Virus record (IMG/VR): IMGVR_UViG_3300009537_000092
Span: 1 to 32,665 of that record
Reading direction: 5' to 3' (one strand)
DNA length: 32,665 nucleotides
Origin: a virus
This document shows, piece by piece, positions 2,328 through 9,088 of this stretch. Position numbers and translations under genes: made by a program. The first letter of the stretch is position 1; each line of letters begins with the position of its first letter. The notes below the pieces were generated by a model. That model did not search any database and was not told the origin of the DNA. It saw only the letters and a program-made list of their open reading frames with translations.

Positions 2328-3017
2328 CTATTGTTGAATATCTTCATTAAAATAATCGTTAATTGTATCAGAAACAAACTGTAAATCATTTGGTATTTTT
2401 ATATCTTTAAACATATCTATGGGTGATTTTGAATTAAATTTATCCACGGATTTTGTTATAAAGTAATGATTACCGTCCTCTACTATAGAATTTAAAACAA
2501 TTGTAAACATGCCTTCAATTGTAATTTTCTCATCTAGCATTTTACCGATGGTTTTACACTTTGTCTTCCCATACATATCAACGTCAGAATGCGTGAGAAA
2601 ATAAATAATCAGATCAGATCGACAGACGCTCGCTTCATTAATAATCGACCATGAGTTTTTAGCGATTTCGGTAAACTTATCATATCCTCGTTCAATTGCC
2701 CTGCGCATAAATTCATTTGCCATGACATATTGAAAATCATCGATAATAATTTGTTTTACTTCTTTTCGCTCGCTTTCAATTTTTTTTATACAGCTAATGA
2801 TTTTCTCTGATTTATCTGTTGAGTATAGATTACAGATGCTTTTTTTGTTATCTTCTTTTTGGGTAACGACGGGCTCCTTATAAGAATGCCTCCAGCCTTT
2901 AAATGGCAGTGGCTTCCCAAGAACGTTAATAATAAATGTTTCTTTTGGGTTTAAGGTTCTAATAGCTGTAGATTTTCCTGAGCCACTTTCACCAATAATT
3001 AAAACGGGAGTACTCAT
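2328..3017 (-). CDS. Sak4-like RecA-fold recombination ATPase (AAA_24)
   Basis: This 229-residue ATPase has a Walker A GESGSGKST at residues 9-17 and a Walker B IIIDD at 90-94. YFLTHSD at 139-145 sits in a sensor position, and KTIGKMLDEKITIEGMF at 155-171 matches the conserved block of phage Sak4/AAA_24 proteins. Members of this family promote single-strand annealing and recombination together with an SSB, and an SSB-like gene lies immediately downstream. The start at 3017 is chosen over the ATG at 3023 because AGGAG is 8 bases from the former and only 2 from the latter. It is translationally close to the 25-residue gene upstream, whose TGA overlaps the 3023 ATG. Confidence 0.8.
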   Translation of the reverse strand: MSTPVLIIGESGSGKSTAIRTLNPKETFIINVLGKPLPFKGWRHSYKEPVVTQKEDNKKSICNLYSTDKSEKIISCIKKIESERKEVKQIIIDDFQYVMANEFMRRAIERGYDKFTEIAKNSWSIINEASVCRSDLIIYFLTHSDVDMYGKTKCKTIGKMLDEKITIEGMFTIVLNSIVEDGNHYFITKSVDKFNSKSPIDMFKDIKIPNDLQFVSDTINDYFNEDIQQ

Positions 3018-3019
3018 CC

Positions 3020-3097
3020 TCATTTCTCCTGTTGTTGACGATGATTATCATCATCATTTTCTTGTGATAAAAAATCTTCCATATCAGAATGAAACAT
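3020..3097 (-). CDS. 25-residue acidic peptide in the csrA operon
   Basis: A very short reading frame, MFHSDMEDFLSQENDDD followed by a Gln/Arg-rich end, starts 9 bases after a good AGGAG. It begins just after the stop of the 72-residue gene upstream, and its TGA overlaps the start region of the Sak4-like gene. Spacing and Shine-Dalgarno quality argue that it is translated, either as a functional peptide or as a coupling frame for the ATPase. No family is recognisable. Confidence 0.5.
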   Translation of the reverse strand: MFHSDMEDFLSQENDDDNHRQQQEK

Positions 3098-4802: not shown

Positions 4803-5165
4803 ATGGATGAGAAAACAAAAAGACGAGCAAAATTTGTGTATAATGCAGCGAGGCTTGCCGCAGAAGCAGCCTCTGCTCCGATTATTCCTCTTATTTTTGA
4901 AGAAAGAGAAGAATCTTTTATAGATCAATTTTTAAAAGTCATTGAACGACAATGCGGTGATCAGCGCTCAAAGTCCCCAGAAGAATTGCATGGAAGTTGG
5001 ATGCAAGCATATTTCGCAATGGGATGGGTGTACGGTGAAAAGTATGATCGAGAGAAAAAAACACACCCAGATCTTGTGCCTTATTCGGATCTTGAGCAAC
5101 TTGAACAGGATAAAGATGCTGTGTTTATTGCTTTGTGTGAGATTGCACGTCAATGGATTTATTAA
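4803..5165 (+). CDS. RyR-domain protein
   Basis: Residues 58-115 match the RyR domain, first defined as a repeat in ryanodine receptors and also found in bacterial and phage proteins. The segment includes SPEELHGSW, GWVYGEKYD and THPDLVPYSDL. The first ~45 residues are a helical, Ala-rich N-terminus. Its ligand in phages is unknown. The gene is flanked by 14-base direct repeats differing at one position (4784-4797 and 5177-5190, CCGATAAATGA(G/T)GT), consistent with a mobile cassette. It starts with the third copy of the Met-Asp-Glu start repeat. Confidence 0.8.
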   Translation: MDEKTKRRAKFVYNAARLAAEAASAPIIPLIFEEREESFIDQFLKVIERQCGDQRSKSPEELHGSWMQAYFAMGWVYGEKYDREKKTHPDLVPYSDLEQLEQDKDAVFIALCEIARQWIY

Positions 5166-8380: not shown

Positions 8381-9088
8381 ATGAAGAATAGCTTTATATT
8401 ATATCATGATATTGTTCATATATTCGATAAACTGACAAATGAACAATCTGGCATTTTGATCAAAGCAATTCTAGATTATGAGGTTAGGGGAAAAATTCCA
8501 ACTTTAGACTTTGCTCTGGATTTAGCCATCACTCCAATCCTTCAATCATTGGACAGAAACAAGGCAAAACATGCTGAAGTTAGCAGAAGGCGCGCCCTTG
8601 CGGGCTCTCGTGGGGGGAAGCAAAAGGTAGCAAATCTAGCAAATGCTAGCAATTGCTACGAGAGTGATAGTGATAGTGATAGTGATAGTGATAGTGAATT
8701 AAAGAAAGATTTTTCTAAAGAAAAATCTTATGTCGAGCAAAAGCTCGACGGCGCCCAGCCTGTTAAAAAAAAGAACCCCAATAAAGAGATCAAAAAACAA
8801 GCATTAGAAGTTTTGGATTTTTTAAACAAAGTGACAGGACGAAACTTCCGGCCAGTGGATGCAAATTTAAAATTAATCGAAGCCAGATTGAGAAGTGGCG
8901 TTAAAGTCCACCAATGTCGAGCGATTATTGGCATTCAATACAATGAATGGAAAGATAGCGAAAAGATGTTTCAGTATTTACGACCTGCCACATTGTTTAA
9001 TAAAACCAAGTTTGAGCAATATTTCGCAAAATTGAACCCTAATTACGTACCACCGGAGGAGGAAAATGAAGATGAAAAAGACGTGTGA
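8381..9088 (+). CDS. Replication-initiator-like protein (DUF6291 N-terminus, Phg_2220_C C-terminus)
   Basis: The 235-residue protein has two domains. Residues 1-60 (SFILYHDIVHIFDKLTNEQ...AILDYEVRG) resemble the DUF6291 type. Residues 140-218 (LDFLNKVTGRNFRPV, ARLRSGVKV, YLRPATLFNKTKFEQYF) match the conserved phage C-terminal domain found in lambda-O-like and DnaD-like replication proteins. The linker, residues 83-115, is low in complexity and includes five Ser-Asp pairs. That linker DNA carries iteron-like repeats and two hairpins, as expected for an origin inside the initiator gene. AAGGAAG lies before the ATG. No helicase loader or helicase is in the window. The domain calls are recalled families; the initiator role is inferred. 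Confidence 0.7.
   Translation: MKNSFILYHDIVHIFDKLTNEQSGILIKAILDYEVRGKIPTLDFALDLAITPILQSLDRNKAKHAEVSRRRALAGSRGGKQKVANLANASNCYESDSDSDSDSDSELKKDFSKEKSYVEQKLDGAQPVKKKNPNKEIKKQALEVLDFLNKVTGRNFRPVDANLKLIEARLRSGVKVHQCRAIIGIQYNEWKDSEKMFQYLRPATLFNKTKFEQYFAKLNPNYVPPEEENEDEKDV
8628..8749 (+). other. Candidate replication origin inside the initiator gene
   Basis: Three near-identical 9-10 bp direct repeats, TAGCAAATC, TAGCAAATGC and TAGCAATTGC, fill 8628-8656. Five tandem AGTGAT hexamers plus a partial sixth follow at 8663-8697. A 10-bp perfect hairpin with a TAAA loop (8706-8729) comes next, then a 7-bp perfect hairpin, GTCGAGC/GCTCGAC with an AAAA loop (8732-8749). Position between the two initiator domains matches lambda ori in gene O. 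The hexamer array could also vary in copy number without breaking the frame. Confidence 0.5.

Follow-up and report, generated by a model that had tools for sequence, protein, structure and literature searches.

A putative replication origin in the linker of an initiator-like gene

The segment spanning positions 8619 to 8749 of the DNA analyzed here is very probably a phage replication origin, located within the linker-coding part of an initiator gene. The window, meaning the whole stretch of DNA analyzed, is a 32,665-bp virus record (IMGVR_UViG_3300009537_000092) in which podovirus-like virion genes are present. The gene in question (8381 to 9088, plus strand) is an open reading frame of 235 amino acids which encodes, in this order, a DUF6291 domain (aa 4 to 82, positions 8390 to 8626, plus strand; Pfam PF19808, E = 1.3e-18), a linker, and a Phg_2220_C domain (aa 144 to 215, positions 8810 to 9025, plus strand; Pfam PF09524, E = 4.9e-22, 78.2 bits against a gathering score of 27). 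No RepA_N domain was found in the protein, the Pfam scan returning DUF6291 and Phg_2220_C only. PHROG 428 ('replication initiation protein') matched the linker and C-domain with E = 7e-23, and it is this match, together with Phg_2220_C and the occurrence in relatives of a lambda O C-domain on DUF6291, that places the gene in a replication-initiator family.

Four iterons of the form AGCAAA(A/T)N (8619 to 8657, plus strand) start at 8619, 8629, 8638, and 8648, thus spaced by 10, 9, and 10 bp; the last copy reads AGCAAT, and a weak fifth (ACGAGA) is found at 8658. Within this region, TAGCAAAT occurs at 8628 and 8637 and TAGCAATT at 8647. The iterons are followed by a hexanucleotide array, (AGTGAT)5, at 8663 to 8692 on the plus strand, which encodes Ser-Asp repeats, by a perfect A+T-rich hairpin with 11-bp arms and a 2-nt loop (8706-8716/8719-8729), and by a GTC-type hairpin, GTCGAGC-AAAA-GCTCGAC (8732-8738/8743-8749), which stands before the Phg_2220_C domain and is of a type also seen in relatives. 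Three iterons, five AGTGAT units, and two perfect hairpins had been reported for the linker in the preliminary description, and all were present where it had placed them. For the iterons, however, the word proved to be AGCAAA, and the copy at 8619, upstream of the start it had given, had been missed.

Synonymous recoding served as the null model for the repeats and hairpins of this gene. At least three exact copies of AGCAAA appeared in the linker in 0.46% of recodings, and the lag-10 repeat in the gene gave z = 3.7 over recoded genes, with the best position allowed for. An 11-bp hairpin arm was obtained in 0.6% of recodings (P = 0.006), compared to 15% for a 7-bp arm; the second hairpin, with its 7-bp arms, is therefore not significant alone, and what counts for it is its recurrence in relatives. 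The whole 32.7-kb record contains 6 copies of TAGCAAAT and 31 of AGTGAT; the iteron and array words by themselves are not specific, and their clustering alone is special. The gene is least stable over a 50-bp segment at its start, and not in the linker, where the A+T-rich 11-bp palindrome lies at 8706 to 8729, and a classical A+T-rich unwinding element is therefore not evident. AGTGAT was also considered as a DnaA-trio and rejected, as only every second triplet fits.

Conservation of iterons and array in relatives

A search with (AGTGAT)4 yielded 67 viral stretches, nearly all of which map to DUF6291 linkers, with the repeat about 100 aa into the protein and in the Ser-Asp frame despite very different C-terminal parts. 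As these loci were picked by the repeat and are hence biased towards the array, sets were also collected by protein domain, DUF6291 genes being drawn from bacterial genomes and viral contigs and Phg_2220_C genes from viral contigs, and the array statistics were recomputed on loci for which the domain had been the sole criterion.

At lag 10, the self-match was 0.418 across 73 non-redundant DUF6291 linkers and 0.334 after recoding (z = 17.7); at lag 20 it gave z = 15.4. In the Phg_2220_C gene set, lags of 10, 11, and 22 gave t = 9.0, 9.8, and 9.3, respectively. Since 10 is not a multiple of three, such a period does not arise from repeated codons, and a purely peptide origin of the repeats was rejected on this ground. 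Among the 40 genes of the AGCAAA type, 90 of 141 intervals were exactly 10 bp, copies per gene averaged 4.53 compared to 0.93 after recoding, and in 28 of the 40 the word was read in all three frames (as KQK, VAN/LAN, and SKx). The iteron words differ between lineages at the same spacing, and include AGCAAA, ACCCA with inverted TGGGT, GCATACGACC, ACGAACGT, and TACCA/TGGTA. No significant 10/11-bp signal was detected in TP901-1 orf13 or Staphylococcus phage 80 in a test on single genes.

The iteron type was found to follow the N-domain. Where N-domains exceed 65% identity and the C-parts are unrelated, genes had a mean of 22.6 6-mers in common in the iteron part, compared to 3.8 for N-domains less than 35% identical. 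As this sharing tracks N-domain identity, the N-domain and its iterons behave as one unit that is exchangeable against C-parts, although physical linkage adds to the association because the two are neighbors.

In 94 DUF6291 genes selected by domain, serine was encoded by AGT at 228 of 261 positions in the array but at 93 of 434 in the domain, and asparagine by AAT at 269 of 280 and 207 of 353, respectively; AGTGATAGTGAT was present in 29 of these genes, compared to 1.05 after recoding. The peptides encoded by the arrays are acidic (SD), basic (NK, TK), or mixed, so that the feature kept is not the character of the peptide. Arrays of 5-nt units, such as GAAGA and GGTTA, were found in 11 Phg_2220_C genes and in none after recoding. 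In relatives chosen by protein domain alone, it is the DNA, and not the peptide, that is conserved. The earlier suggestion that the DNA shapes the linker peptide was supported by the 10-bp period running through all three frames and by the codon invariance of the array, along with the iterons that follow the N-domain and the covarying hairpin arms.

An alternative explanation is that the linker is a disordered, low-complexity segment grown by slippage, whose repeats are without function in the DNA and merely reflect what the peptide tolerates. The (AGTGAT)n array stays in one frame, slippage by 6 nt in frame would yield perfect units, and the array has 4 or 5 units in contigs that are otherwise near-identical, from which it follows that slippage surely acts on it and could still be the cause of its length. 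As a full account, however, this explanation is highly improbable, given an iteron period of 10 bp over three frames, the existence of pentanucleotide arrays, the persistence of the array across peptides as different as acidic SD and basic NK or TK, and the covariation of hairpin arms described below. The array may serve in opening or spacing.

A covarying GTC hairpin before many Phg_2220_C domains

There were 107 viral stretches with the exact sequence TGTCGGGCAANCCCGAC, and in 54 of the 80 loci examined it directly precedes the Phg_2220_C domain. A perfect 6-bp hairpin starting with GTC was present before the domain in 49 of 118 non-redundant Phg_2220_C genes, which had been picked regardless of the hairpin, compared to 1.9 after recoding, and across this set it is translated in two different frames. 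Selection in the covariation test was on the outer GTC and GAC only; the inner three positions paired far above shuffled partners, also with each distinct arm pair counted once (P < 2e-4).

Among DUF6291 genes, the GTC hairpin was found in 3 of 4 with Phg_2220_C and in 5 of 118 without it, so that its link to this domain is strong but not exclusive. Confinement of the hairpin to Phg_2220_C genes had been considered, and was weakened by the latter five, namely locus L090 and four other DUF6291 genes. The gene at L090 (4001 onward) carries an exact GTCGGGCAAGCCCGAC hairpin (peptide ILSGKPD) together with an unrelated C-domain. Hairpins with arms of at least 7 bp occurred after the array in 37 of 121 DUF6291 genes, against 10.9 expected. 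A recurrent hairpin, TTCGGGGG-ACA-CCCCCGAA, was observed after the array in three loci from Clostridia genomes (L083, L086, and L091), and Prevotella-type genes (L094, L096, and L103) contain TGGAAAC-N4-GTTTCCA; these two forms are possibly specific to host groups.

It was also considered that the conserved hairpin might work at the mRNA level, controlling translation or stability, apart from the origin. The element is transcribed, and covariation fits DNA and RNA alike. Against this, Rfam gave chance matches only and no family for the hairpin, and in genes with unrelated N-domains the hairpin keeps its place 3' of the iterons and array. A function in the mRNA is accordingly regarded as rather unlikely, and would be compatible with an origin formed by the iterons and array. 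Taken together, the comparisons show that the three parts, iterons, array, and hairpin, are conserved at the DNA level and in a fixed order.

Comparison with known in-gene origins

In lambdoid phages, iterons and an AT-rich tract make up the origin, which is situated midway in gene O (PMC7466680). As in the gene described here, the lambda iterons are located in the DNA for the linker that joins the initiator's N-terminal domain to its C-terminal domain, but they are 18 bp long and about 20 bp apart, compared to a spacing of 10 bp here, and the N-domain is not DUF6291. The 5/6-nt array and the GTC hairpin are further features by which the present arrangement differs from lambda ori. A parallel with lambda ori had been drawn in the preliminary description and turned out to be closer than claimed, as relatives were found that join DUF6291 and the lambda O C-terminal domain in one protein, and as Tuc2009 orf16, described below, shares the iteron-plus-array plan. 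Identity to the lambda O C-domain was 47% over 96 aa at locus L006 and 40% at L190, and by motif, nine DUF6291 genes have a C-terminal part resembling this domain. The N-domains of L006 and L191 are 90% identical, while their C-parts are of the lambda O type and Phg_2220_C, respectively. Fusions of DUF6291 to a lambda O-like C-domain amount to a domain swap between initiator families. Iterons and array were seen to be retained in DUF6291 genes with a lambda O-like C-domain at L006 (7356-8246), L190 (2992-3702), L031, L163, L145, and L172.

Similarities also extend to RepA_N plasmids. In pSK41, the ori occupies a central position in rep and is bound by the N-domain, the linker encoded by the ori can be dispensed with, and primase is bound by the C-domain; in pPR9, an N-domain of phage type, along with its own origin, is joined to the pSK41 C-domain (PMC5703833). 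By analogy, the plan shared with the present gene would be an ori in the middle of the gene, binding by the N-terminal domain, and recruitment by the C-terminal domain. pSK41 differs in having four Rep boxes and a RepA_N initiator, a domain absent from the protein described here.

Among lactococcal phages, Tuc2009 orf16 (Rep), whose record is annotated 'contains origin of replication', likewise has 10-bp iterons (z = 6.5) followed in the linker by a tandem pentanucleotide array (GGTTA/GGATA); its N- and C-domains are different, and the GTC hairpin was not seen in orf16. Phage r1t orf11 shows iterons of about 11 bp (GGAACCGAAA), an AT-rich array, a GTCAGG-TAAA-CCTGAC hairpin, and Phg_2220_C in a similar manner, but its N-domain and iteron words differ from those of the present gene.

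It could be argued that the repeats are sites for autoregulation or silencing, that is, operator-like iterons within the gene, and that replication starts elsewhere, since iterons imply a DNA-binding protein acting at this place and not the start of replication as such. Such an explanation is considered unlikely, as an array and a hairpin adjoin the iterons, DUF6291 is fused to lambda O C-domains, and the annotated origin of Tuc2009 has the same plan. These fusions and the iteron-plus-array plan of Tuc2009, along with the match between the pSK41/pPR9 and lambdoid arrangements and the one proposed here, are among the grounds on which an origin is preferred. The data are best explained by an in-gene iteron origin that works in the manner of lambda ori and the pSK41 ori, but differs in its N-domain, which is unrelated, and in having an additional hairpin. 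The original proposal of an origin inside the initiator gene is similarly favored by the relatives, through the 10-bp period, the codon invariance, the iterons following the N-domain, and the covarying hairpin arms. Cumulative GC skew, which had been suggested as a check, was uninformative: in one circular relative the minimum lay at 10.8 kb and the gene at 17.1 kb, and in the window skew is confounded by gene orientation.

Proposed mechanism and protein models

Given that the iteron type follows the DUF6291 domain, this domain is proposed as the iteron binder. It would bind the helically phased AGCAAA iterons, and the resulting nucleoprotein complex would open the adjoining 5/6-nt array and A+T-rich stretch or palindrome. 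By comparison with lambda O and pSK41 Rep, the C-domain, which is Phg_2220_C in this protein and the lambda O C-domain or another one in relatives, would recruit the helicase or its loader. More speculatively, the GTC hairpin, once single-stranded, might mark or protect the entry point of helicase or primase. The disordered linker peptide would be a by-product of carrying the DNA site.

The DUF6291 model (pLDDT 88.7) is all-helical, with three helices and no beta wing; the absence of the beta wing of known initiator domains counts against an origin. Foldseek and VIA-align gave no confident fold match for this model, and a sequence search of solved structures returned nothing useful. The top structural match of the Phg_2220_C model (pLDDT 94.8) was the SPP1 helicase loader G39P (65 residues, 2.6 Å, Z 5.8), a weak match that can be no more than suggestive for a domain this small and helical.

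In-gene iteron origins are already known. What appears to be undescribed is the link of DUF6291 to such origins, together with the 10-bp iteron words that each lineage uses, the array of 5/6-nt units, and the GTC hairpin with its covarying arms. In the literature searched, which takes in a minority of subscription journals, no paper naming DUF6291 was found, and parts may have been described earlier, notably in lactococcal phages; near-identical phage DNA was not found in the phage collection. The three-part design, with differing DNA words, recurs in well over 100 related phage genes without an assigned function. A tentative proposal, somewhat short of an even chance, is that DUF6291/Phg_2220_C initiator genes carry a modular origin of a shared and hitherto undescribed layout, in which exchangeable iterons matched to the N-domain and a 5/6-nt array are combined with a covarying GTC...GAC hairpin serving as a DNA element for helicase loading or the start of priming. 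If this is true, origins and initiator specificities could be read from the iteron words and hairpin in a large group of phages. Apart from this proposal, an in-gene origin gives a function to DUF6291, which has none assigned, and places a probable origin in many phages whose origins are unmapped. The N-domain and its iterons appear to move as one cassette that is attached to various helicase-recruiting ends, and specificity is therefore open to study by swaps. No described role was found for the hairpin with covarying arms or for the pentamer/hexamer array, which are likewise testable parts.

Several further observations were made. A Sak4-like single-strand annealing protein (PHROG 2872, E = 9e-78) is encoded at 2328 to 3023 of the window on the minus strand, a few kb from the replication gene, and the product predicted from 4803 to 5165 contains a RyR domain (PF02026, E = 1.2e-10). 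Six loci (L078, L084, L085, L087, L088, and L095) contain frame breaks or stops in the linker just before or within the array, such that the protein ends at about 92 to 123 aa; these are either decayed genes or cases in which the N-domain is expressed alone. Finally, many copies of (AGTGAT)4 were found outside any initiator gene on one 17.5-kb contig (L026 and L038; IMGVR_UViG_3300006802_010118), where they apparently form a dispersed short repeat.
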